From Burkholderiales bacterium (lineage in GTDB: Bacteria > Pseudomonadota > Gammaproteobacteria > Burkholderiales > Burkholderiaceae_E), in the NCBI GenBank assembly GCA_005798775.1, contig SYIM01000043.1, positions 1 to 45,936 of the forward strand: a DNA stretch of 45,936 bases. Direction: 5' to 3'. Below, piece by piece: positions 5,479 through 17,929 of this stretch. Positions within the stretch are counted from its first letter, which is position 1. Every line of letters begins with the position of its first letter. The notes beneath the pieces were generated by a model. That model was not told the origin of the DNA. It saw only the letters and a list, made by a program, of their open reading frames with translations, and searched no databases. The position numbers and the translations under genes are program-made.

Positions 5479-7074
5479 TTACGTGAAGCGACGGATCAGA
5501 TCGTCTTTGCGTACTTTGCCGGTGATGGTGAGCGGCAGGTCACGCTCCTCGATCACCAAAAATTGTTTCGGTCGCTTATAGCGTGCCAGTTCGCGGGTAC
5601 ACAAAGCCCGCACAGCCCCGAGGTCGATCGTCGCTCCGTGCTTGGGCACCACCACCGCGCCAAACACCTCCTCCAGCTCGGGATCCGGGAGTGGCACACA
5701 GTAGGCGGCCATCACGCCGGGGTGTCCGGTGAGCACCTGCTCCACCTCAACCGGCGACACATTCATGCCACCGGTCTTGATCATTTCCTTGATCCGACCC
5801 CGAAAATAAAGGTGCCCGGTGGGGCCGAACAGACCGAGATCGCCCGTGCGGAAGTAACCGCGCTCATCAAAGGCCTCGCGGGTGCGCTCAGGATCCTTGT
5901 AATACTCCTTGAGCACATGACCCTTGACACGGATTTCTCCGATCTCGCCGGCTGCGCACTCCAGCCCGGAGCTGCTGTCGACCACCCGGATATCGAAGCC
6001 CGTGAGTGGCTGGCCGATGCTGGTCAGCCGAAGCGCCAGATCGTCAGCCGCGTCAGTGACCGTACAGTTGCCATAAGTTTCAGTAAGACCGTAGATGTTG
6101 CAGATTTCGTTGAGACCAGCATCAATCAGCCGCCGGATCTGATCGGGTGTGCCGATCGTGGCGCCACCCCGCATGGTACGAAGCCGCTCTCGCCGATAAC
6201 CGGGCGTGCTGAGGAGCGCCTCGGCCATGTTGGGCGTGCCATAGAAGATCGTGCAGCGTTCACGCTCGATCAGCTGGAGGGCCAGTTCAGCGTCAAAGCT
6301 TTCCTGCAGCACGATGCAACCACCGTGCGTATAGAGGTTGAAGAGCGCGTTTTCACACCCCAGCCCCCAGAAGAGCGAGACGGCCAGCCACAACCGGTCA
6401 TGATGCGTGACGTGCTGGCGCTGACCGATCTGCCACATGTTTTCGATCAGCCCGCGATGCTGAATCACTACCCCTTTGGGTAGCGCGGTGGAACCCGAGG
6501 TGTAAAGGATATAAGCGGGATCGTCGGGCTTTACGGCCGACCGTGCGTCCTCAAGTCGGGTCGCAGCGGCGGAATCGGGTTCGCGCAGCGCATCGGTCCA
6601 GCGCAGATCTTCGTCGCGCACGTCTTCGCCCACCACCAAGAGGCGCTCGAGCTGAGGCAGTCTGGATTCACCTCGCAGTTCGTCGATCATTGCGCGGTAA
6701 TCGTGCCGCAGAAAGCGGCCGGTGGTGATGAGGAGTCGCGCATCAGAATGCTCGAGCACATAGGCGAGTTCCCGTGCGGTCACCCAGGTGTTGACTGCCA
6801 CCATCACCGCGCCCAGGGAGGTGATCGCAAAGTCGGCAATGATCCACTCGGGAAGGTTGCCCATCAGCACGGCCACCTTGTCGCCTTTGCGGATTCCCGC
6901 CTGCAGCAGGAAGGACGCAACCTGGTTCACCGTCCGTTCGACACCTTGATAGGTGAAGCGGTGGTGGACACCCACCACCGCTTCCCGATCCGGATAGCGA
7001 GTCGCCATCTCGGCAATCAGCGCGGGGATGGTCAGGCTCTGTGGAGCCAGTTCGGGCGGGGCAGATTTTTGCAT
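5479..7074 (-). CDS. AMP-forming acyl-CoA synthetase (ANL superfamily)
   Basis: The 531-residue enzyme activates a carboxylic acid to its CoA thioester through an acyl-adenylate. The phosphate-binding loop YTSGSTALPKG is at 191-201, followed by the hinge-region motifs GYFRTGDLG and GRIKEMIKTGGMNVSP, and the C-terminal catalytic lysine region TITGKVRKDDL. The ATG at 7074 begins the natural N-terminus; an open frame 26 codons longer runs into the divergent promoter region. A minus-strand TATACT (7116 to 7111) could be its -10 box. It is the first gene of the 7074-3360 operon. Related enzymes use medium- or long-chain, cyclohexane or aromatic acids. Confidence 0.92.
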   Translation of the reverse strand: MQKSAPPELAPQSLTIPALIAEMATRYPDREAVVGVHHRFTYQGVERTVNQVASFLLQAGIRKGDKVAVLMGNLPEWIIADFAITSLGAVMVAVNTWVTARELAYVLEHSDARLLITTGRFLRHDYRAMIDELRGESRLPQLERLLVVGEDVRDEDLRWTDALREPDSAAATRLEDARSAVKPDDPAYILYTSGSTALPKGVVIQHRGLIENMWQIGQRQHVTHHDRLWLAVSLFWGLGCENALFNLYTHGGCIVLQESFDAELALQLIERERCTIFYGTPNMAEALLSTPGYRRERLRTMRGGATIGTPDQIRRLIDAGLNEICNIYGLTETYGNCTVTDAADDLALRLTSIGQPLTGFDIRVVDSSSGLECAAGEIGEIRVKGHVLKEYYKDPERTREAFDERGYFRTGDLGLFGPTGHLYFRGRIKEMIKTGGMNVSPVEVEQVLTGHPGVMAAYCVPLPDPELEEVFGAVVVPKHGATIDLGAVRALCTRELARYKRPKQFLVIEERDLPLTITGKVRKDDLIRRFT

Positions 7075-7249
7075 GATCGGGTCGGGCAAGACGCCAACTG
7101 GGGCGCTCCAAGTATAGGCAAAGCTGGCGCTAATCGGCCATAACGGAATCACTTTCGGATCGTGGGCTTCTCAAGGCGCGGATCCGATGCGATCCTTCAG
7201 ACTGATTGGCGATGACCAACGGGGTCAGCCGGATATCTCGGAGACTGTC

Positions 7250-8165: not shown

Positions 8166-8816
8166 TCAGAGCTCGCGGGTCTCGAACGTGCCGGGAAGAA
8201 TCAGTTCGATCATCTCGCAGTCGTCGGAATAATCAAGCACCGTGTGCGGGATCGAATTGGGCTGGATCCAGCAGGCGCCTGCCTCGAACCGCTCACGACG
8301 GCCGTTGTATTCGCCTTCCATCCAGCCTTTGAGCATGTACAGGAACTGGAACTGGACGCCATGAAGATGACGAATCGACACCACCGCCGGATCGCAGGGG
8401 CCGTGCAGTCGAATCACATGCGCCTGGACTACGCCACCAGTTGCCTTGCTGATCCCAAGATCGCGGTAAGAGGCATAGGAGCGAAGGCCTTTCCGAAACT
8501 GCTGACCCTTGTCACTCGCGTGTGCAGCCATGAATTTTTGCGGCTTCCAGCGGGTGACCGCCGGTACCTTCAGGGTAGGTAGCGCAGCTGGTTTTTTGCT
8601 GGAGGATTTTGATTTGTCGGCGCGCTTCGCAGCGGGCAGCTTGGCTACAGACTGAGCGGCTGCCCGGCTCTTCGCTGCGGGTTTCCTGGCAGCGGGCTTT
8701 TTGGCAGCGGATTTCTTGGCAGCTGGTTTCTTGGCAACGGGTTGCTTGGCGGCGGGCTGCTTGGCGGCGGGCTTCTTCGCAATCGCCTTGCGGGCGGCCT
8801 GGGCTACAGTGGCCAT
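8166..8816 (-). CDS. Cupin-domain protein with N-terminal histone-H1-like Lys/Ala/Pro tail
   Basis: The 216-residue protein has two parts. Residues 1-90 are a low-complexity basic tail: eight near-perfect five-residue units of the type KKPAA (14-53) followed by more Lys/Ala/Ser-rich sequence. Residues about 95-216 form a single cupin with metal-binding candidates in RHLHG, the usual cupin glutamate replaced by Gln, and a later histidine in NSIPHTV. The tail resembles AlgP and bacterial H1-like proteins, which bind DNA. The cupin resembles small-molecule sensing or isomerising domains. It is the last gene of the eight-gene TRAP operon. Function is unknown; another cupin in the same operon carries a basic tail at its other end. 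Confidence 0.88.
   Translation of the reverse strand: MATVAQAARKAIAKKPAAKQPAAKQPVAKKPAAKKSAAKKPAARKPAAKSRAAAQSVAKLPAAKRADKSKSSSKKPAALPTLKVPAVTRWKPQKFMAAHASDKGQQFRKGLRSYASYRDLGISKATGGVVQAHVIRLHGPCDPAVVSIRHLHGVQFQFLYMLKGWMEGEYNGRRERFEAGACWIQPNSIPHTVLDYSDDCEMIELILPGTFETREL
8658..8777 (-). repeat. 15-bp imperfect tandem repeat encoding KKPAA pentapeptides
   Basis: Eight 15-base units code for residues 14-53 of the tailed cupin. Unit sequences vary at the second residue (K, Q or S) and in codons, so this is an old, diverged protein-level repeat rather than a fresh slippage tract. Confidence 0.85.
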
Positions 8817-8837
8817 GTGAGGATCTCCGGGAAAACG

Positions 8838-9560
8838 TCAGACAGAGCCCAGCGGCCTCAGTTCGATAAGATCGGGACAGAGGTTGGGCGTGGATTCAAA
8901 CGCATAGACCACCGCGCTCGCCACCTCATCCGGGGTGAGCGGTGAAAAGCGGCGCGCCTGCATGGCGGCAACGACTGCAGGGTGGTCGCTTCCCTCGCGG
9001 ATGTTGGTGTCGACCATACCGGGTGCCACCTCAGTAACCTTGATGCCAAAACCCTGCAATTCGAGCCGGAACGAGCGTGCAAATGCAGAGAGCGCGTGTT
9101 TGGTGGCGCAGTAACCCGAGGCCAGCCGGTAAACCTCGCGCGCGGCGATGGAGGTCATGAACACGATGTGGCCCGACTGCCTGGCCACCATGTGCCGGGC
9201 AACGCGGCGCGTGAGTTGTACCGCCGCCATGACGTTAGTCTGGAACATCCAGGCGATGTCATCGTCGGACAGATCCATGAGTGGGGCATAACGCAACACC
9301 CCTGCGTTATTGATGAACACGTCGCAGCGGGCGAAATGGCCATCGGCTCGGTCGAGGTAGGCCTTATCGTTCAGGTCGCCTGGAAGAATTTCGATCGAAC
9401 CCGCTGGCGCTTCGTTAGCGAGCGACTGTAGCGCCTCCACACGCCGTCCCATCGCAATCACGGTGTCACCGCGTCGCGCAAGCATCACTGCGCAGGCCCG
9501 GCCGATTCCAGCCGAGGCGCCTGAGACCAGAACGGTTCTTTTCTGCGATGAAGCGGACAT
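8838..9560 (-). CDS. Short-chain dehydrogenase/reductase
   Basis: The 240-residue classical SDR has the cofactor motif GASAGIG (14-20), the structural NNAG (84-87) and the catalytic set Ser137, Tyr150 and Lys154 (YCATK). Arg39-Arg40 after the second strand suggests NADP(H) preference, an inference. Two ATGs are close together; the one at 9560 has an AAGGA site at proper spacing, while for the one at 9566 the same site would be too near, so 9560 is preferred. It is the seventh gene of the TRAP operon, between the hydroxynitrile-lyase-like cupin and the N-tailed cupin. It probably oxidises a secondary alcohol or reduces a ketone of the imported substrate. Confidence 0.9.
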   Translation of the reverse strand: MSASSQKRTVLVSGASAGIGRACAVMLARRGDTVIAMGRRVEALQSLANEAPAGSIEILPGDLNDKAYLDRADGHFARCDVFINNAGVLRYAPLMDLSDDDIAWMFQTNVMAAVQLTRRVARHMVARQSGHIVFMTSIAAREVYRLASGYCATKHALSAFARSFRLELQGFGIKVTEVAPGMVDTNIREGSDHPAVVAAMQARRFSPLTPDEVASAVVYAFESTPNLCPDLIELRPLGSV

Positions 9561-9577
9561 GGGCATTCCTTTCCGGG

Positions 9578-9961
9578 TCAGCCTTTCACATACTGGGCAT
9601 CGGTTACCGGCTCTTTCCAGTCGGTTTTACCGATCGAAATGGCCAGGTGCATCATGAAACTGTTCGTATCAGCGCCATGCCAGTGGCGCTCGCCCGGTCC
9701 GATCCAGACGACATCGCCGGTCCGGATACGCTGGGGTTCGTGGCCATCCTCGCAGACCCAGCCGCTTCCGCCCACCACATGCAGAACCTGTCCCACTTCG
9801 TGCTGGTGCCAGTGTGTACGCGCGCCCGGCGAGAAAAACACGTTGTTGATCTGGACGCCCTGGGTGAAGGGCATGACCGGGTCTCCCCACACACCGCCGG
9901 TGAAGGTACCGCCACGCATTTCCGAATTGGCGCCTTCCTGGCGCGCATACATCACTTTCAT
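9578..9961 (-). CDS. Mn-type cupin, (R)-mandelonitrile (hydroxynitrile) lyase-like
   Basis: The 127-residue single-domain cupin closely matches the bacterial cupin hydroxynitrile lyase group (GtHNL type). The metal site is predicted as His52, His54, Gln58 and His93, and His105 matches the catalytic histidine I recall for that enzyme (His106 in Granulicella). The segments PGARTHWHQHEVGQ and GDVVWIGPGERHWHGA are diagnostic. The physiological role of this family is not settled; cyanohydrin cleavage is a known in vitro activity and carboxymuconolactone-decarboxylase-like roles have been proposed. A strong AGGAG site lies 8 bases before the ATG. It is the sixth gene of the TRAP operon. Confidence 0.88.
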   Translation of the reverse strand: MKVMYARQEGANSEMRGGTFTGGVWGDPVMPFTQGVQINNVFFSPGARTHWHQHEVGQVLHVVGGSGWVCEDGHEPQRIRTGDVVWIGPGERHWHGADTNSFMMHLAISIGKTDWKEPVTDAQYVKG

Positions 9962-9993
9962 TGAGATCTCCTGAAAAACATCAAAAACAAAGG

Positions 9994-10884
9994 TCAGCCG
10001 TTCACCCGGACACCGCCACTGACGTCGCCGATCGCATCAACCACCCGATTACTGATCTGGTCACCGTAGCCCAGCGCCGTTCCAAGGCCAAAGCTTGCCA
10101 GCGGACCCGCTGCGTTGAGCGAAGCGATACCGAGCTCACTCGCCATTTCAGCGTAGAGCACGATGTCTTTGGTCATGAGCTTGCCGGTGAGCCCGCCTTC
10201 CAGATAGTTGCCCCGAATGATATGGGGAAAGCGGTTGAGGCTCGCAAAGTTCACCCCACTACTGCTGTTGATCACGTCGAGAAGCTGCTGAAGATCCAAT
10301 CCGGCCTTGCGGCCGGCGACCATGACCTCGGCTGTCGTAGCGAGCGTGACGGCATTCAGGAAATTATTGAGTAGTTTGGTGGCATGGCCATTACCGGTTG
10401 CGCCCATATGAACCACCTTGGCAGCAAAGTGCCGGAACACCGGATCAAGCGTGCGGTCCACCCCCGCGGGGCCGCCGATCATGAGCGTGAGCGTACCCTT
10501 GTCGGCAGCCGCGGCGCCACCCGAAATGCCTGCGTCGACCAACACCGCGCTGCGCTCTGCAAAGAGGGCTGCAAGCCGACGCGTGGAACGCGGCGCCGCC
10601 GTGGACAGATCAACGATGGTCTGCCCCGCTCGGCAATGCGCGAGAAGGCCAGCATCACCCTCGACCACCTCTTCCACGGCATGGCTATCAGGCAGCGACA
10701 GCAGGATCAGGTCACAGGCCTCGGCGATCTGTGCGATGGACGAAGAAGGCGTTGCGCCGAACTGCTCCGCCTGCCCGGCGCGTACATCAAAACCGCGCAC
10801 ACTCAGCCCACCGGCTACCAGTCGGCGCGTCATGCGCCCACCCATATTGCCCAGGCCTATGAATCCGATCTGCTGCATGCTCAT
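9994..10884 (-). CDS. NAD(P)-dependent beta-hydroxyacid dehydrogenase (HIBADH family), second copy
   Basis: The 296-residue enzyme is a paralogue of the gene at 7250. It has GLGNMG within residues 10-15, the substrate-loop DAGISGG at 118-124 and catalytic Lys170 in ATKLLNN. The family oxidises or reduces beta-hydroxyacids such as 3-hydroxyisobutyrate, tartronate semialdehyde or sulfolactaldehyde-type compounds. The ATG at 10884 directly follows the TGA of the upstream tailed cupin; a second ATG two codons on (10878) is also possible. It belongs to the TRAP operon, so it probably acts on the imported acid or a product of it. Confidence 0.92.
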   Translation of the reverse strand: MSMQQIGFIGLGNMGGRMTRRLVAGGLSVRGFDVRAGQAEQFGATPSSSIAQIAEACDLILLSLPDSHAVEEVVEGDAGLLAHCRAGQTIVDLSTAAPRSTRRLAALFAERSAVLVDAGISGGAAAADKGTLTLMIGGPAGVDRTLDPVFRHFAAKVVHMGATGNGHATKLLNNFLNAVTLATTAEVMVAGRKAGLDLQQLLDVINSSSGVNFASLNRFPHIIRGNYLEGGLTGKLMTKDIVLYAEMASELGIASLNAAGPLASFGLGTALGYGDQISNRVVDAIGDVSGGVRVNG

Positions 10885-11598
10885 TCATCGCCCCCGTGCA
10901 GCTTGTCTGGCCACTTTGGTGGTGCGCTTGGCCGGCGCCTTGGTCGCCTTGGTCGCCTTGGTCGCCTTGGTCGCCTTGGTCGCCTTGGTCGCCTTGGTCG
11001 CCTTGGTCGCCTTGACAGCCGCTGTCGTGACCGGCTTGCCCGCCGACTTTTTACTGGCTGCCGATTTGCCGAGGGGCGCCGCGCTCACCAGCACCGCCGC
11101 AATGACACACGGCACATCGCCGCGAACGCTCCAGGAATGGTTGGTGCCGCGCTGGATGAACACATCGCCAGGCTTGAGCAACACCTCACCCTCTTCCACC
11201 ACAGCGTAAATCTCGCCGGAGATCACGATGATGTAGTCGACCGTATTGGTCTTGTGCATCATGGGGTCCGCCGATTGCTTATCCTTAGCGTGTCCCGCAC
11301 CAATCGATTCGAACGCAGCTTTGGCATCCGCGCTGTCGCGCCAGGCCTTATCAGGCGGGAACTCGACAATACGGAGGATAGAACCACCTCGCGGCGGCTC
11401 TAGCCTCACGGCGCGGTCGGCAGCATCGGCATTGCCGTCGTTCCTCGCAAGCGGTCCGGTGGTTTCCCACAAATCGGTCAGTGCGAGGCCTGGCATCGAC
11501 GCCATCTCTTTGACATTAGGCGCCAGACCGTCCTCGATGATCACCGCTCGACCCCGCTTGTTGTGCCCGGTGTAAACCCTGCGTACTCGCCAGACCAT
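10885..11598 (-). CDS. Cupin-domain protein with C-terminal KAT-repeat basic tail
   Basis: The 237-residue protein has a cupin body (about 1-178) and a basic tail (about 179-237). The body has the family hallmarks VYTGHNKRGRAVI, GLALTDLWETTG, a histidine in MHKTNTVDY and another in RGTNHSW, with Asp in the usual cupin glutamate position. The tail contains eight consecutive Lys-Ala-Thr triplets and ends in KRTTKVARQAARGR, resembling histone H1. The cupin body alone matches a widespread family without this tail, so the tail looks added. An AGGAG site precedes the ATG. It is the fourth gene of the TRAP operon and its stop directly abuts the next start. Confidence 0.88.
   Translation of the reverse strand: MVWRVRRVYTGHNKRGRAVIIEDGLAPNVKEMASMPGLALTDLWETTGPLARNDGNADAADRAVRLEPPRGGSILRIVEFPPDKAWRDSADAKAAFESIGAGHAKDKQSADPMMHKTNTVDYIIVISGEIYAVVEEGEVLLKPGDVFIQRGTNHSWSVRGDVPCVIAAVLVSAAPLGKSAASKKSAGKPVTTAAVKATKATKATKATKATKATKATKATKAPAKRTTKVARQAARGR
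10937..11008 (-). repeat. Eight perfect 9-bp tandem repeats (plus-strand unit GCCTTGGTC) encoding Lys-Ala-Thr
   Basis: Eight identical 9-base copies run from 10937 to 11008, followed by a partial copy. Synonymous positions are identical in all copies, which indicates recent expansion by slippage. Each unit is three codons, so copy-number change alters tail length but not reading frame. Confidence 0.95.
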
Positions 11599-11636
11599 GG
11601 TTCTGTCTCCTGATTTAAAGTTAGGAAGGGCCGCCC

Positions 11637-12959
11637 TCAGAGCAGCGCGGTGGCCAGCCCGGGAAACGCGATCACCAGCAGGAGCACCACCAGCATGATC
11701 GCAGCGAAAGGAAATGCACCGGCAAAGATATCGTTCAGCGTGATGGGGCTGGAATTACCGAGTGTTGCCTTGATGACGAACACTGCGATGCCAAACGGCG
11801 GTGTAAGGAGCCCAATCTCAACCGCCAGCAGCGTCACGATTCCGAACCAGATAAGGTCAACATTGAATGAAACCAGCGCGGGTAGCACCAGCGGGATGGT
11901 GATCAGCATGATTGAACTGGAATCGAGAATCGTGCCAAGCAAAAGCACCACCAGAACAAAGATGGTGAGCAGACCGGGAAAGCCCAGCCCGGTACTCACG
12001 GTAAGCGTACGAAGCAGTTCGGTGACGCCCGAGACCGCCAGCATGCGTGAATAAAGCTGCGCTGCGATGATGAGAAAACAGATTGATGCCGTGATCCGGC
12101 CGGTTTCAACCAGCACCTGCCAGAGCGCCGCCCGGCTCAGTTTGCGCTTGACGATGGCCAGCACCAGCGCGCCCGCTGCGCCCACCGCGCCCGCCTCGGT
12201 GGGCGTGAAGAGCCCGGCGTAAAGCCCGCCCAGCACCAGTAGCACCAGCGCGACCACGGGCGTCATGCGTGCACCCATGTCGCCGGGACTCATCAGCGGC
12301 GCCACCGGCCCGGTGTTGGAAGCCATCCCCCCACCCACAAATTCCGGGGTGAATCGCCCCATGAGCAGAATACCGATGGCGTAGGCGATCGCCAGCACGA
12401 TACCCGGGATAATGCCCGCCACGAACAGATCACCCACCGATTTTTCGGTGAGTACGCCATAGAGGATAAGCAGGAGGCTGGGCGGAATCAGCATGCCCAG
12501 TACCGATGATCCAGCCACCACCCCCACTGCAAAGCGCGCAGAGTAGCCGTGTCGTAGCATCTCGGGCACTGCCACCTTGGTGAAGACCGCCGCCGAAGCG
12601 ATACTGATACCAGTGATGGCCGCAAACACCGCATTGGCGGCGACCGTTGCGATGCCCAGCCCGCCGCGCACCCGGCGGAAGATCTGGTTGGCGACTTCAA
12701 ACGAGTCTTTGCCTACGTCGGCGACCGCCACCAGTAACCCCATGAGCACGAAGAGCGGCACCACCCCGAACACATAGTCGGCGATGGCATCCGTTGCAGC
12801 AAGCGCGAGGAGGTTGGCGGCCATGGTTGCATCACCGCGAATCATCCAGACCCCGACAAACGACAGGAGTGACAGCGCGATGCCCACATGCATGCCGGCA
12901 TAGATCAACACCAGCATGATGGCTACCGACACGAGTCCGATCAGCGTTGGCTCGATCAT
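11637..12959 (-). CDS. dctM: TRAP transporter large permease DctM
   Basis: The 440-residue integral membrane protein has about 12 hydrophobic segments, with the family segments LPLF-like VVPLFVLMG, SGSS-region GVVAGSSVLGMLIPPS, and FTPTEAGAVGA. DctM catalyses sodium-driven uptake of solute delivered by DctP. Its ATG overlaps the dctQ stop (ATGA at 12956-12959). The order P-Q-M is the standard TRAP arrangement. The next gene, the C-tailed cupin, starts 38 bases beyond its stop. The SBP (13536) suggests a carboxylate ligand but not which one. Confidence 0.95.
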   Translation of the reverse strand: MIEPTLIGLVSVAIMLVLIYAGMHVGIALSLLSFVGVWMIRGDATMAANLLALAATDAIADYVFGVVPLFVLMGLLVAVADVGKDSFEVANQIFRRVRGGLGIATVAANAVFAAITGISIASAAVFTKVAVPEMLRHGYSARFAVGVVAGSSVLGMLIPPSLLLILYGVLTEKSVGDLFVAGIIPGIVLAIAYAIGILLMGRFTPEFVGGGMASNTGPVAPLMSPGDMGARMTPVVALVLLVLGGLYAGLFTPTEAGAVGAAGALVLAIVKRKLSRAALWQVLVETGRITASICFLIIAAQLYSRMLAVSGVTELLRTLTVSTGLGFPGLLTIFVLVVLLLGTILDSSSIMLITIPLVLPALVSFNVDLIWFGIVTLLAVEIGLLTPPFGIAVFVIKATLGNSSPITLNDIFAGAFPFAAIMLVVLLLVIAFPGLATALL

Positions 12960-13522
12960 TCTCCGGCTCCCCCCGCAGTCGCCGGTTGCACTCGACCCAA
13001 GGAGCTCTGCAGATCATGCCAGGCAAGGAGCAGAAACTGAAGCGCCATGGCACCGCTCCCTATCAGTACGATGACGTAAAGTGGCCCGGTCGGAATCTGA
13101 ATAAGCCCGGCCGAACCATAGAAATCACTCGCCTTGAAGGCCTCGATCATGATCGGCCAGAGCGCGCCGAACAGGATCAGGAACAGGGCCATGCCGGTTA
13201 GATGAAACAGTCCTTGTAGCAGATAGCCGACCGCTGGCCGCTTGTCGAGCAACCGCGCAAGCAGCACGTCGGAGCGTGTAAGCCCACCAGTGCGCAGCGT
13301 CTGCGGTAGTTGCAGGAACACGATGCCTACGATCGAGAACCTCACCATTTCCGGCACGCCGAGCAGCGGCGCATTGAACGCGCCGCGGCCCACAACATCG
13401 ATCAGGATCAGCACCATCAGAAAAAAGATCCATAAGGTGCCGATTGCAGAAAGTAAAGCGATTGTCCTCGCGTGGAGCGGCGCCGGTTCAGCCGCTGCCG
13501 ACGGGCTGAGCCCGGATTTCAT
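12956..13522 (-). CDS. dctQ: TRAP transporter small permease DctQ
   Basis: The 188-residue protein has four hydrophobic segments and the DctQ hallmarks VVGRGAFNAPLLGVPE and a late TGPLY segment. DctQ bridges DctM and the binding protein. The start at 13522 was chosen because a GGGGG-rich ribosome site lies just before it and it falls 13 bases after the dctP stop; longer in-frame starts would lie inside dctP. It overlaps dctM by four bases. Confidence 0.92.
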   Translation of the reverse strand: MKSGLSPSAAAEPAPLHARTIALLSAIGTLWIFFLMVLILIDVVGRGAFNAPLLGVPEMVRFSIVGIVFLQLPQTLRTGGLTRSDVLLARLLDKRPAVGYLLQGLFHLTGMALFLILFGALWPIMIEAFKASDFYGSAGLIQIPTGPLYVIVLIGSGAMALQFLLLAWHDLQSSLGRVQPATAGGAGE

Positions 13523-13535
13523 CCTGCCCCCGTCT

Positions 13536-14597
13536 CTATTCTTTATCGAAATCGCGTGTGAACTTGTAGCCCGTGGCGCGGACCGAATCCATGTAGGCCG
13601 ACAGCACCTTCTTGCCGTTGGGCCCGGCTTGCTTGATCCAGTCACGCGTGGGGTTAGGCATCGCCTTGACCAACCGAATCTGCTCCTCAGTTGATAGCTG
13701 ATTCACCTTGCCACCGCCTTTTTGCCAGGCTGCATACGAGGCCTCGATACGCTCGGTCTGCTCGCGAAGGTAGTTAGCCTTGTAGGCGTTAGCGCCGCGC
13801 CGGAAAGCGGCCTTCACCTCATCCGGCAGCTTGTCCCAGCGATTCTTGTTGATCGCAACCGCACCCGCGTACATAGCACCCATGTTGGTGACCGTGTAAT
13901 AGGGGGCGACCTCAAACAGCTTGGCTGGAACCGCAGAGGTGGCAAACGCAACCACGCTCTCGTAGACGCCGGTCTTGACGTCGTTATAGAAGGTGTTTAG
14001 GTTTCCCTGAACACCCACCGCACCCGTGCCGCGGAACCACGCCAGGTTCGGACCCGCACCACCGATCTTGCGACCTTTTAAATCTTCCAGCCGGCTGATC
14101 GGAAAGCTGCTGGCGATACCGTAGTTGTCAATGGCAAATCCGGCCAGATACACCGTGGTGTACTTGGTCCATTCGGCCGTGAGCTCGGGCAGTCCCTGAA
14201 CATAGTCAATCGCCTGCGTGACGATACTGGCGTCGGGGGGGCCGTAGGGTACGAAGTACGTGACATTGTTGAGTGGCAGCTTGGCCGACTGGAACACCGT
14301 GGCAACGATCCCCATGTCGGACAGTCCTTGCTGCATGGACTCGAGCTCGGACCCGATCTTGGCAAGCGTGCCACCATAGCTCTCATTCCAATCGATTCGG
14401 TATTTGCCAGTTTTTTTGAGCTCGGCATCCACCGTAGCCATCAAGCTTTCCTTGATGTGCTTTACCCAGAGAAAGATGGGGGGATGGCCTGCGGCAACTT
14501 GCAGGCGAATCACCTCCTGCGCCTGGACGCTCCCCAGCGCGGACGCGCAGACGACCCCGGCAACGAAGGACCTCAGCGATGCTGCATTACGTTTCAT
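13536..14597 (-). CDS. dctP: TRAP transporter periplasmic substrate-binding protein DctP
   Basis: The 353-residue receptor begins with a Sec signal peptide: basic MKRN, a hydrophobic core and a likely cleavage after SVQAQ near residue 26. The C-terminal two thirds contain the DctP-family features, including the GRKIGGAGPNLAWFRGTGA region and the INKNRWDKLPDEVKAAF segment. The ATG at 14597 is favoured by an AGGAGA site 8 bases upstream and by the signal peptide; longer forms start in the intergenic region. It is the first gene of the eight-gene operon that ends at 8166. The ligand is unknown. Confidence 0.93.
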   Translation of the reverse strand: MKRNAASLRSFVAGVVCASALGSVQAQEVIRLQVAAGHPPIFLWVKHIKESLMATVDAELKKTGKYRIDWNESYGGTLAKIGSELESMQQGLSDMGIVATVFQSAKLPLNNVTYFVPYGPPDASIVTQAIDYVQGLPELTAEWTKYTTVYLAGFAIDNYGIASSFPISRLEDLKGRKIGGAGPNLAWFRGTGAVGVQGNLNTFYNDVKTGVYESVVAFATSAVPAKLFEVAPYYTVTNMGAMYAGAVAINKNRWDKLPDEVKAAFRRGANAYKANYLREQTERIEASYAAWQKGGGKVNQLSTEEQIRLVKAMPNPTRDWIKQAGPNGKKVLSAYMDSVRATGYKFTRDFDKE

Positions 14598-14833: not shown

Positions 14834-15832
14834 ATGAAACTAGTGACCTTCCAACAAGGCAAAAGAAGGCCCCGCGCTGGGGTTCTTGTTGACGGAGACC
14901 GAAAGGTCCTGGACCTACAGGCCGCGCATCGCCTGCGGTATGGCAAGTCCTCATCCAGGCTTTCGAGCGTACTGGCTATGGCGCAATCGGGTGATGATGC
15001 GCTGGATCTCGCTCGGTCTCTCATCCGCGGCCGCACCCGCCACAAGGCGGCGCTGATTGCCCGAGATGATGTACGGCTGCTGGCTCCCATTCCGCAGCCC
15101 CCGCAGATGCGCGATTTCCTCTGCTTCGAAAAGCATCTCCTGCAAGCGTTCTCCACCGCCCGCAAGGTCCGTGCTGCAGGTGCGTCTGACCCCGCTGCAG
15201 CCATCCGTGACATGGAGGCCAAGGGTATTCTTGCAATACCGCAGGCTTGGTACGAGCGTCCCATGTTCTATCACCCCAACCGGCTCAACGTGGTCGGTCA
15301 CGACACCGACATCGAGTGGCCGTCCTTCTCAACCCTGCTCGATTTCGAGCTCGAGTTCGGATGCTTCATCGGCAAGCCCGGCCGCGATATCAGCCAGGCC
15401 AATGCGCGCCAGCACATCTTTGGCTACACCATCTTCAACGACGTGTCCGCGCGCGACGAGCAAATGAGGGAAATGCCTGGTCAGCTGGGCCCGGGCAAAG
15501 GGAAGGATTTCGATACCGGCAATGTGCTTGGCCCCTGCCTGGTCACCGCCGACGAAATCACCAATCCGTATCGACTCGCGATGGAGGTACGTGTCAATGG
15601 CGAGCGTTGGGGAGGCGGCAACAGCAGTGAAATGCACTGGAAATTTGAAGACTGCATTGCACATGTCTCACGTTCGGAAACGCTGGTGTCGGGCGAGTTT
15701 TTCGGCTCGGGTACCGTCGGGTCTGGTTGCGGACTCGAACAGATGCGGTTTCTCAAACCCGGCGACGTGGTCGAACTTGAGGTTGAAGGAATCGGAATTC
15801 TGCGCAATCGGTTCGTCAGGCTTGAGGCCTGA
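14834..15832 (+). CDS. Fumarylacetoacetate hydrolase (FAH) family protein
   Basis: The 332-residue enzyme has the FAH catalytic core: metal ligands Glu172 and Glu174 in DFELEFG, an Asp in FNDVSARD (Asp203), and the conserved KGKDFDTGNVLGP loop. The family hydrolyses C-C bonds of beta-diketo acids, decarboxylates oxo acids or acts on 2-keto-3-deoxy sugar acids. The ATG follows a GGGGGA site. It leads a plus-strand operon with a lactonase, a TctC binding protein and a DABB-like protein, fitting a route from lactone through keto acid to central metabolism. The exact reaction cannot be assigned. Confidence 0.92.
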   Translation: MKLVTFQQGKRRPRAGVLVDGDRKVLDLQAAHRLRYGKSSSRLSSVLAMAQSGDDALDLARSLIRGRTRHKAALIARDDVRLLAPIPQPPQMRDFLCFEKHLLQAFSTARKVRAAGASDPAAAIRDMEAKGILAIPQAWYERPMFYHPNRLNVVGHDTDIEWPSFSTLLDFELEFGCFIGKPGRDISQANARQHIFGYTIFNDVSARDEQMREMPGQLGPGKGKDFDTGNVLGPCLVTADEITNPYRLAMEVRVNGERWGGGNSSEMHWKFEDCIAHVSRSETLVSGEFFGSGTVGSGCGLEQMRFLKPGDVVELEVEGIGILRNRFVRLEA

Positions 15833-15865
15833 CATGTCACATGCTTTCTTGGCGGTGAACCTCAA

Positions 15866-16897
15866 ATGAGCCCAAACCCATTGTCCGGCTTCTCGGTCGA
15901 CCGTTCAGCCATCGGCTATGTGGGTCGTGATCTGCAGCGGCCCGAATGCATTCTCGCCGAGCCCAATGGCGACCTGTGGTCGGCCGATGCGCGCGGCGGC
16001 TTGATGCACATTCATGCAGACGGATCCCAGGTGTTCGTTGGCCAGAGCGCCAGCGGCGCGTTCGGTGTCACAGCCGATGCGGAGTCCCGCTTTACAAAAG
16101 GAACACTGCCTAACGGGCTCGCATTCGCGCGTAACGGCGACATCCTGATCTCCAATTTCGGCACCGACCGGCTGGAGCTCATGTCCCGCTCAGGTCACAC
16201 GCGCGTGCTCCATGATCGACTCGGTGGCCAACCGATCGGCAAGGTCAACTTTGTGCTCCGCGATTCACGCGATCGCATCTGGATCACGGTCTCCACACAA
16301 GTCAATCCCTGGACCGCGGCAGCGGCCAGCCGTATCCGCGACGGCTTCGTGGCGGTCGCCGATCAGCGGGGTATCCGTATCGTTGCCGACGGCTTTTCCT
16401 TCACCAATGAAATTCGCTTGGATGCCAATGAGGAGTGGCTCTATATCGTCGAGACAACCGGCCCGCACATTACGCGAATGCGGGTTCGTGAATCAGCCAA
16501 TGGCGACGTGGGCCTCTGCGATCGCGAAATCTACGGCCCAGCCCATCTCGGTGGTATGCCCGATGGCATCGCGTTCGACGCCTTCGGCAACCTCTGGTGC
16601 ACGCTTGTCATGATCGACCAACTCATAGCCCTCACTGCCCAGGGCGAACGGCTGATGCTGCTCGATGACAGCACACCGGCGGGCCACGACCTGGTGCGCG
16701 CCTTTGATGCGGGTAAGGCAAACAGCGAAATGATGTTCGCAGCCGCTGGCACCATCGCACCCTGGATGGCCAGTGTCACGTTTGGCGGCCCTGATCTGCG
16801 TACCGCCTACCTGGGCAGCCTGCGCGGCACCCGAATCCCGTTTTTCCAGTCGCCTGTTGCAGGGCTACCCATGGTGCACTGGCCGCGCGCGGCCTGA
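15866..16897 (+). CDS. SMP-30/gluconolactonase/LRE family protein
   Basis: The 343-residue protein is a six-bladed beta-propeller of the SMP-30/gluconolactonase family. The segments RPECILAEPNGDLWSAD, LPNGLAFARNGDILISNF, FTNEIRLDANEEWLYIVET and GGMPDGIAFDAFGNLWCTL mark successive blades, and include the metal-binding Glu (RPE), Asn and Asp positions of lactonases. There is no signal peptide, so it is cytoplasmic. It most likely hydrolyses a sugar or other lactone; in the operon it follows an FAH-family enzyme, so lactone hydrolysis followed by C-C hydrolysis is a plausible pair. The ribosome site is weak. Confidence 0.9.
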   Translation: MSPNPLSGFSVDRSAIGYVGRDLQRPECILAEPNGDLWSADARGGLMHIHADGSQVFVGQSASGAFGVTADAESRFTKGTLPNGLAFARNGDILISNFGTDRLELMSRSGHTRVLHDRLGGQPIGKVNFVLRDSRDRIWITVSTQVNPWTAAAASRIRDGFVAVADQRGIRIVADGFSFTNEIRLDANEEWLYIVETTGPHITRMRVRESANGDVGLCDREIYGPAHLGGMPDGIAFDAFGNLWCTLVMIDQLIALTAQGERLMLLDDSTPAGHDLVRAFDAGKANSEMMFAAAGTIAPWMASVTFGGPDLRTAYLGSLRGTRIPFFQSPVAGLPMVHWPRAA

Positions 16898-16948
16898 ATA
16901 TCAACTGGCTAACGACACCCGTATTGTTCGAACTCACCAGGAGTTTTC

Positions 16949-17929
16949 ATGAGGCTCTCTTTGCTCACTGCTGCGGCGCTCGCCGTACTCGCTTTTTCCC
17001 TGGCAGATCACGCAACGGCCCAGAGCGGCGGCGACAAACCCATCTCGCTCATCGTGCCGTTCAGTCCTGGCGGCGGCACCGATATTCTGTCGCGCATGCT
17101 CGCGCCCAAGCTCGCGGAAAAACTGGGCACCAGCGTGGTGGTGGAAAACCGGCCTGGTGCCGCGGGTGCCATCGCGGCCCAGCATGTGGCGCGCTCCGCA
17201 CCCGATGGGCGAACGCTTCTGGTCGGATCTACCTCCGAGATCGGTGTGAACCCTAGCCTGTATCCGAAGCTGCCCTATGACGTTGCACGCGATTTCGCCC
17301 CAGTGGCTGCGCTTGCTGACACGCCCATGGTTCTGGTGGTGAATCCGGCCTCGCCCATCAAGACTGCGCAGGATCTGGTTGCGCGCGCCAAGGCAAGCCC
17401 GGGGCAGCTCCTATTTGCTTCCGCAGGAGTGGGAAGCGGCGCGCATCTGGCGGCTGAGCTTTTCTTCCATGTCACTGGCACCAAGTTGTCACACGTCCCC
17501 TACAAGGGCGTGGGGCCTGCCATGGCGGAGATTGTCGGCACACAAAAGGACATGATGATCTTCACCACGCTACCGTCGTCAACGTCCTTTGCGCGGTCGG
17601 GACAGTTGCGGGTGGTGGCGGTGTCGAGCAAGGAACGTATGGCGATCGTGCCCGACATTCCCACCTTTATCGAATCGGGTGTGGCGGGCTACGAAGTCTA
17701 TTACTGGTACGGCCTGATGGCGCCATCCGCCACCGCAGTCGATACCCGGCGACGAATTCACGCTGCGGTCACCGAAATCCTGCAGCAGCCCGACACGCTT
17801 GCGAGTCTGTCTCGGCAGGGGCTGCAGCCCACTGTACGCACAGCCGAGGAATTCGACGCGTTCATCAAGGCCGACATGGCACGCTGGGCGGTGGTGGTGA
17901 AGGCGGCCGATATCAAGCCTGACCAGTGA
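16949..17929 (+). CDS. Tripartite tricarboxylate transporter substrate-binding protein (TctC/Bug family)
   Basis: The 326-residue protein has a Sec signal peptide ending near ATAQS (about residue 25) followed by the Bug-family first lobe: ISLIVPFSPGGGTDILSRM, VVVENRPGAAGAI, APDGRTLLV and LPYDVARDFAPV. Bug proteins bind carboxylates or amides with two water molecules and deliver them to TctAB. No tctA or tctB lies next to it, so it is an orphan receptor that may share the TctAB at 43203-45179 or another set. A strong AGGAG site precedes the ATG. The next gene overlaps its stop by four bases. Confidence 0.95.
   Translation: MRLSLLTAAALAVLAFSLADHATAQSGGDKPISLIVPFSPGGGTDILSRMLAPKLAEKLGTSVVVENRPGAAGAIAAQHVARSAPDGRTLLVGSTSEIGVNPSLYPKLPYDVARDFAPVAALADTPMVLVVNPASPIKTAQDLVARAKASPGQLLFASAGVGSGAHLAAELFFHVTGTKLSHVPYKGVGPAMAEIVGTQKDMMIFTTLPSSTSFARSGQLRVVAVSSKERMAIVPDIPTFIESGVAGYEVYYWYGLMAPSATAVDTRRRIHAAVTEILQQPDTLASLSRQGLQPTVRTAEEFDAFIKADMARWAVVVKAADIKPDQ

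Follow-up and report, generated by a model that had tools for sequence, protein, structure and literature searches.

Lysine- and alanine-rich terminal tails in two lineages of bacterial cupins: distribution, composition and candidate roles

Basic, histone H1-like tails are already known in bacteria on unrelated folded domains. In the polyhydroxyalkanoate granule proteins PhaF and PhaM a disordered or Lys/Ala-rich terminal region is joined to an unrelated folded part; PhaF and the PAKKA lysines of PhaM reportedly hold the granules on the nucleoid (PMC9049629, accessible portion). AlgP of Pseudomonas aeruginosa bears an H1-like tail of KPAA repeats, predicted to be disordered, in which a 154-aa repeat region is joined to a predicted helical domain; KPAA peptides are reported to bind DNA, and the protein sits on polyphosphate granules and acts on their spacing (PMC9239181, accessible portion). 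A Lys-rich, H1-like tail is also reported for actinobacterial topoisomerase I (PMC7398561, accessible portion). Here we describe tails of this kind on two cupins, CupA and CupC, encoded with a tripartite ATP-independent periplasmic (TRAP) transporter in an eight-gene cluster. The cluster lies in a 45,936-nucleotide stretch of Burkholderiales DNA, hereafter the window, which is contig C339 of a draft genome (G000) estimated to be 78.5% complete.

The cupins resemble PhaF and PhaM in the placement and character of the tail and differ from them in the folded part, which in PhaF and PhaM is not a cupin; the reported link to granules is that of PhaF and PhaM. A preliminary description of this DNA regarded the arrangement as apparently undescribed, and within the open-access searches made for it this holds: among the papers listed, none gave evidence of a tailed cupin in its title or the beginning of its abstract, with subscription papers and preprints outside the search.

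The two tails and the barrels that bear them

The cluster occupies positions 14597..8166 of the minus strand, in the order dctP-dctQ-dctM-cupA-HIBADH-cupB-SDR-cupC (HIBADH, 3-hydroxyisobutyrate dehydrogenase; SDR, short-chain dehydrogenase/reductase), all genes co-directional; the preliminary description of the cluster and of both tails, coordinates included, was correct. CupA (237 aa; 10885-11598) consists of a barrel at residues 1-178 (11065..11598) followed by a C-terminal basic tail of 59 aa plus the stop codon (10885..11064), a KAT array whose DNA is a 9-bp array at 10936-11014 with 8.8 copies and 100% matches. In CupC (216 aa; 8166-8816) a KKPAA-like basic tail of ~85 aa (8562..8816), containing a 15-bp array at 8669-8781 with 79% matches, precedes the barrel (8166..8561). 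Like bacterial H1-like proteins, the CupC tail matches the Pfam family HC2 (PF07382, histone H1-like; E=2.5e-7) and NF038053 (E=1.5e-4); it differs in that both matches lie under the curated cut-offs (31.4 bits against 40 for HC2) and that CupC otherwise consists of a cupin barrel. CupA gave no HC2 match at E<=0.001 in Pfam.

The composition of these tails is well kept. Fifteen CupA tails, ranging from 15 to 88 aa and totalling 631 residues, contain 32.6% Ala, 28.8% Lys, 11.1% Arg, 7.3% Pro and 6.0% Thr, and not one Asp or Glu. The CupC tails of the window's genus, counted with their linker (n=4), include three acidic residues in 301, and those of a second family, f256 (n=34; see below), seven in 1794, with 22.2% Lys and 13.5% Arg.

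Both tails are rare. A scan for K-rich, acid-poor composition returned the CupA and CupC tails alone from the window, and nothing from 20 evenly spaced contigs of G000 (179,288 bases, a near-unbiased sample) or from two further stretches of that genome. Extended to open frames in five sets of sequence (857.8 kb, 30-residue stretches; some loci counted twice, and most chosen for holding cupins), the scan found such stretches on CupA and CupC alone. The rule is strict, and misses tails visible by eye in L171, L173, L182, L186, L187, L241 and L242. A strict motif, KKxAxKK, which is blind to the KAT tail and could let other tail kinds escape, matches three G000 loci: cupC, a gene at a contig edge, named H1-like from its likeness to a tested gene of a same-genus genome (G004), and a gene with a SWIB domain. 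Searched as DNA, the motif occurs at one or a few loci per genome in nine genomes; 13 of 14 such stretches coincide with a K-rich protein stretch in the composition scan (L204 is without one), and they include H1-like proteins, of which L199 passes HC2 (55.5 bits, cut-off 40).

Two further protein types with tails of this kind were observed during these searches. Several genomes of the order encode SWIB-type proteins whose N terminus bears a KKPAA-like tail (L192, L194, L196, L200, L202, L203, L205), the assignment having been made with Pfam for L192 and by eye for the others. In L198 (G170:C158) the ribosomal silencing factor RsfS carries a long Lys/Ala-rich C-terminal tail, with an HC2 match under the cut-off.

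The barrels themselves are recognizable cupins. Against the Cupin_2 superfamily (PF07883, cut-off 27.2 bits), CupA scores 30.7, CupB 35.8 and CupC slightly under the cut-off at 24.9. The CupC barrel matches the solved cupin 2o8q (Bxe_C0505) at 3.5e-21 by sequence, and by fold as well, and its residues H150, H152, Q157 and H191 are invariant in 30/30 rows. The nearest solved relatives of the CupA barrel are 3es1 and StrC (8x0u); H115, D121 and H154 are invariant in 25/25 rows. By analogy with cupin motifs 1 and 2, we take both sets of residues to be putative metal ligands, the CupC pattern being as expected and that of CupA less canonical. The AlphaFold model of CupA is weak overall (mean predicted local distance difference test score, pLDDT, 68.4; best Foldseek matches at a root-mean-square deviation near 15), so that its sequence match to 3es1 and StrC is better evidence than its fold. 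At 172 and 134 aa, 3es1 and 2o8q are too short to hold a comparable tail, and the titles of both give function unknown; in the search for an enzymatic function of CupA, no paper on StrC of Stachybotrys was found.

Distribution of tails in the two lineages

Searches for cupA homologues covered 61 relatives together with 399 genomes from the order; matches exceeded the loci read, which numbered 45 distinct loci. Tails divide these sharply by identity: all seven loci at >=70% (the window included) are tailed, and all 38 at <=48.6% are tailless. Titled genomes from GTDB supplied 23 cupA loci, 14 tailed (six of them duplicating loci among the 45; L170 is G001, and L169 is G003) and seven tailless (one at 41% identity), with one cut by a contig end and one fragment. 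L169, a metagenome-assembled genome titled Bordetella parapertussis, is congeneric with the window's genome; its title is probably wrong. In a tree of 59 CupA barrels, the bootstrap of which had not settled, the window's sequence falls in a clade of 21 rows (support 99/92), 15 tailed and six tailless, and every row outside this clade is tailless. The best tree requires four changes of tail state (its starred branches alone force two), gain and loss being indistinguishable. Among the tailed members are records titled Xanthobacteraceae and Enhydrobacter, so that the CupA tail would extend past the window's order, provided these titles are correct.

A KAT array was seen nowhere but in the window's genus. 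Orthologues elsewhere carry KKPA, KKAP or short lysine-run tails, and some have basic tails that are not repetitive at all. Because the KKPA- and KKAP-like forms lie outside the genus, the KAT array appears to have developed recently from an older basic tail. The proposal that the CupA and CupC tails arose independently needs qualifying accordingly.

In the CupC lineage, all four same-genus copies at 97-100% identity (the window included) are tailed. The 39 further distinct homologues read at first, at <=53% identity, all lack a tail, judged either by rule or by eye. Upstream of one of these, L090, lies a basic open frame, which we read as outside the gene because a start codon adjoins the barrel. 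The same-genus paralogues L146-L148 are tailless. Searches at successive taxonomic depths retrieved seven matches from 74 genomes of the family (E<=1e-30), the window's own gene alone from 369 genomes of the class (1e-33), and ten others from 398 genomes of the phylum, all in family f256; a match at 1e-25 was obtained in 36 of 110 f256 genomes and in none of the other 74. Every one of the 34 f256 loci read, in 18 genera, has a basic N-terminal extension; these comprise the ten from the phylum search and 24 from the f256 search, with six of the 36 matching genomes, and weaker matches, left out. Two of the loci, L206 and L227, are identical in tail and barrel. A quick tree of 82 CupC barrels confines the tails to one subclade of 45 rows (SH-aLRT 98), 37 of them tailed, including one Arg-rich row added by eye. 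Whether tailed cupC was transferred between f256 and the window's genus is left undecided by this tree, which has few columns and does not resolve the base of the subclade.

Five genomes of the window's genus were compared; G002 is without either cupin at high identity, and G004 without a close cupA. In the plasmid collection 127 records match cupA and 20 match cupC, all below 60% identity. The two tails thus persist in homologues (CupA, 15/21; CupC, 4/4 and 34/34), contrary to the refuting condition set by the preliminary description, a lack of tails in all close homologues, and slippage confined to G000 was rejected as their source, since orthologues elsewhere hold basic tails of different sequence. 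These comparisons show that the tails go with the two cupin lineages and not with the operon.

Candidate roles of the tails

From the composition and retention of the tails, and from the reported cases of PhaM, PhaF and AlgP, we tentatively favour a tethering role, to which we give slightly less than an even chance. The tail, probably disordered and polycationic, would bind, irrespective of sequence, some polyanion of the cell, chromosomal DNA being the likeliest. Binding to DNA would keep the cupin on the nucleoid, as is reported for the PhaM and PhaF granule proteins, and the barrel, otherwise an ordinary cupin, would still work as an enzyme or a ligand-binding protein, probably in the handling of the imported compound in the case of this operon, with whatever effect on metabolism such placement may bring. 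The Lys/Ala/Pro-rich, acid-poor composition of the terminal tails fits tethers of the PhaF/PhaM type, and the same kind of tail occurs elsewhere in these genomes on an H1-like HC2 protein, on a SWIB protein and on RsfS.

The mode of evolution of the tails is consistent with such a role. Sequence and length drift fast and composition stays, which we read as selection for charge and flexibility and not for sequence. In same-genus pairs the ratio of nonsynonymous to synonymous substitution (dN/dS) is 0.09-0.38 over the aligned part of the tail (8/9 pairs; one undefined) and 0.009-0.042 in the barrel (9/9 pairs).

Several points weigh against tethering to DNA. RNA, ribosomes, polyphosphate and acidic membranes are also possible ligands for such chemistry. 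A tail is missing from six of the 21 members of the CupA clade and from eight of the 45 rows in the CupC subclade; five of the 15 CupA tails are just 15-24 residues long, which is short for H1-like compaction. The dN/dS values for the tails are rough, repeat alignments favouring matches. Disorder is suggested by composition and by low model confidence (10-residue mean pLDDT of 50-69 in the CupC tail against 78-97 in its barrel, and of 48-52 in the CupA tail against 36-94), and this confidence is weak evidence of it, since most rows of the AlphaFold alignments contain little or no tail.

Binding of the tails to a different polyanion or to a surface is possible, though we hold it unlikely; candidates are polyphosphate granules, ribosomal RNA or the ribosome itself, and the acidic inner membrane, where CupA would lie near the TRAP permease. 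Tails that finish in lysine runs, as the short CupA tails of L177 and L182 do, resemble polybasic membrane anchors, and a ribosomal factor, RsfS, bears such a tail in G170. For polyphosphate there is the location of AlgP, with its KPAA repeats, on polyphosphate granules (accessible part of PMC9239181). A transporter-linked membrane role would not be general, because seven of the 15 tailed cupA loci lack a nearby TRAP homologue and tailed cupC does not depend on one. The present observations hold no argument against polyphosphate or ribosomes.

It is doubtful that the tails lack a specific role, having arisen by near-neutral expansion of repeats at permissive termini. The KAT array, as a perfect 9-bp repeat, does indicate recent expansion, and the spread of CupA tail lengths, the tailless members of the clade and the far faster evolution of tails than of barrels would all suit neutrality; against it stand the complete lack of Asp and Glu in the CupA tails, the basic tail at every f256 cupC locus read, the non-repetitive basic tails of orthologues, the want of any such stretch in 179 kb of other G000 contigs, and a tail dN that remains below dS.

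We consider it improbable that the tailed cupins act on the nucleoid as sensors of a ligand or metal; in that reading two cupin lineages, one with a tail at every locus read in 18 genera of f256, would employ a small-molecule-binding barrel joined to an H1-like tail, and binding of a metabolite would alter local chromosome structure or expression. That the tails would hold together a metabolic assembly of the operon, linking both cupins or pairing one cupin with an acidic partner enzyme, is most improbable: G000 and G003 have both tails within one operon, but two positive tails would be expected to repel, G004 has tailed cupC with best cupA homologues at 40-42%, and G038, G087, G170 and G207 have tailed cupA with best cupC homologues at 38-48%.

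A CupC lineage with a tail at every locus read in 18 genera of f256, and a CupA lineage with tails of 0 to 88 residues in several families, offer a natural experiment on the polycationic tail of a metabolic protein, with tailed and tailless relatives to compare.

Gene modules and neighbouring genes

Intergenic gaps from dctM through cupC are 0-38 bp, and this spacing suggests that the eight genes are transcribed as a single operon. The transporter is specified by dctP (solute-binding protein; 13536..14597, minus strand; PF03480, E=1.3e-21), dctQ (small permease; 12956..13525, minus strand, start approximate; PF04290, E=2.5e-16) and dctM (large permease; 11637..12959, minus strand; TIGR00786, 280.5 bits, cut-off 268.45). 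Between the two tailed cupins lie, also on the minus strand, a HIBADH-like dehydrogenase (9994..10884; PF03446 and PF14833 over cut-off, all NCBIfam matches under cut-off), the tailless cupin CupB (127 aa; 9578..9961) and an SDR oxidoreductase (8838..9566; PF00106, E=1.9e-45). CupB resembles cupin-type hydroxynitrile lyases (4bif, 4uxa); its best NCBIfam match, (R)-mandelonitrile lyase (NF049940), scores 128.3 bits, under the cut-off of 140.

The complete operon, with both tails, recurs in G003. Elsewhere its parts occur separately: G004 has HIBADH-cupB-SDR-cupC with no TRAP genes or cupA at that site; G170 has a fumarylacetoacetate hydrolase (FAH)-like gene divergent from dctPQM-cupA; in G087 cupA is divergent from FAH-dctPQM, with a more distant TRAP set (37-50% identity); and in G038 and G207 FAH is divergent from cupA, with no adjacent TRAP. 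In G001, listed with 8% contamination, dctPQM-cupA and a broken HIBADH copy lie on one contig and HIBADH-cupB-SDR-cupC on another. The operon thus consists of two modules, united in G000 and G003 but separate in the other genomes, each of which, when separate, retains its own tail. The broken copy was seen in L042 (G001:C151), at ~6583-7157, where the HIBADH that follows tailed cupA matches in two overlapping frames and ends early; together with the intact set elsewhere in G001, it suggests an operon split or duplicated, or two strains mixed in the genome.

Co-occurrence of the tails with TRAP operons, named as a check in the preliminary description, was not borne out, and the tails were rejected as a TRAP-operon trait. 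Within the 21-member clade, TRAP genes lie near eight of 15 tailed and one of six tailless cupA loci (Fisher p=0.18), the TRAP genes being assigned from tblastn matches to the window's proteins in the available flanking DNA, a procedure that distant or cut-off TRAP genes could escape. In G001 and G004 no TRAP genes adjoin tailed cupC, and homologues of DctP, DctQ and DctM were not found at 1e-8 within ~8 kb on either side of cupC in 5/5 f256 regions. In one f256 locus, L240, cupC is surrounded by genes for a major facilitator superfamily protein, a nucleoside transporter and a tetratricopeptide repeat/glycosyltransferase-41 protein.

The more constant partner of tailed cupA is FAH, present at 12/15 loci within ~1 kb or across the TRAP genes; it was not seen beside tailed cupA in L186 and L187, and L175 ends at a contig edge. 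The window's FAH-like hydrolase (14834..15832, plus strand) has FAH-type NCBIfam matches all under cut-off, and its homologue in L176 passes Pfam PF01557. Together with two further genes it occupies 14834-17929, divergent to the operon; these two gave no match in NCBIfam and are presumed to be SMP-30-like and TctC-like.

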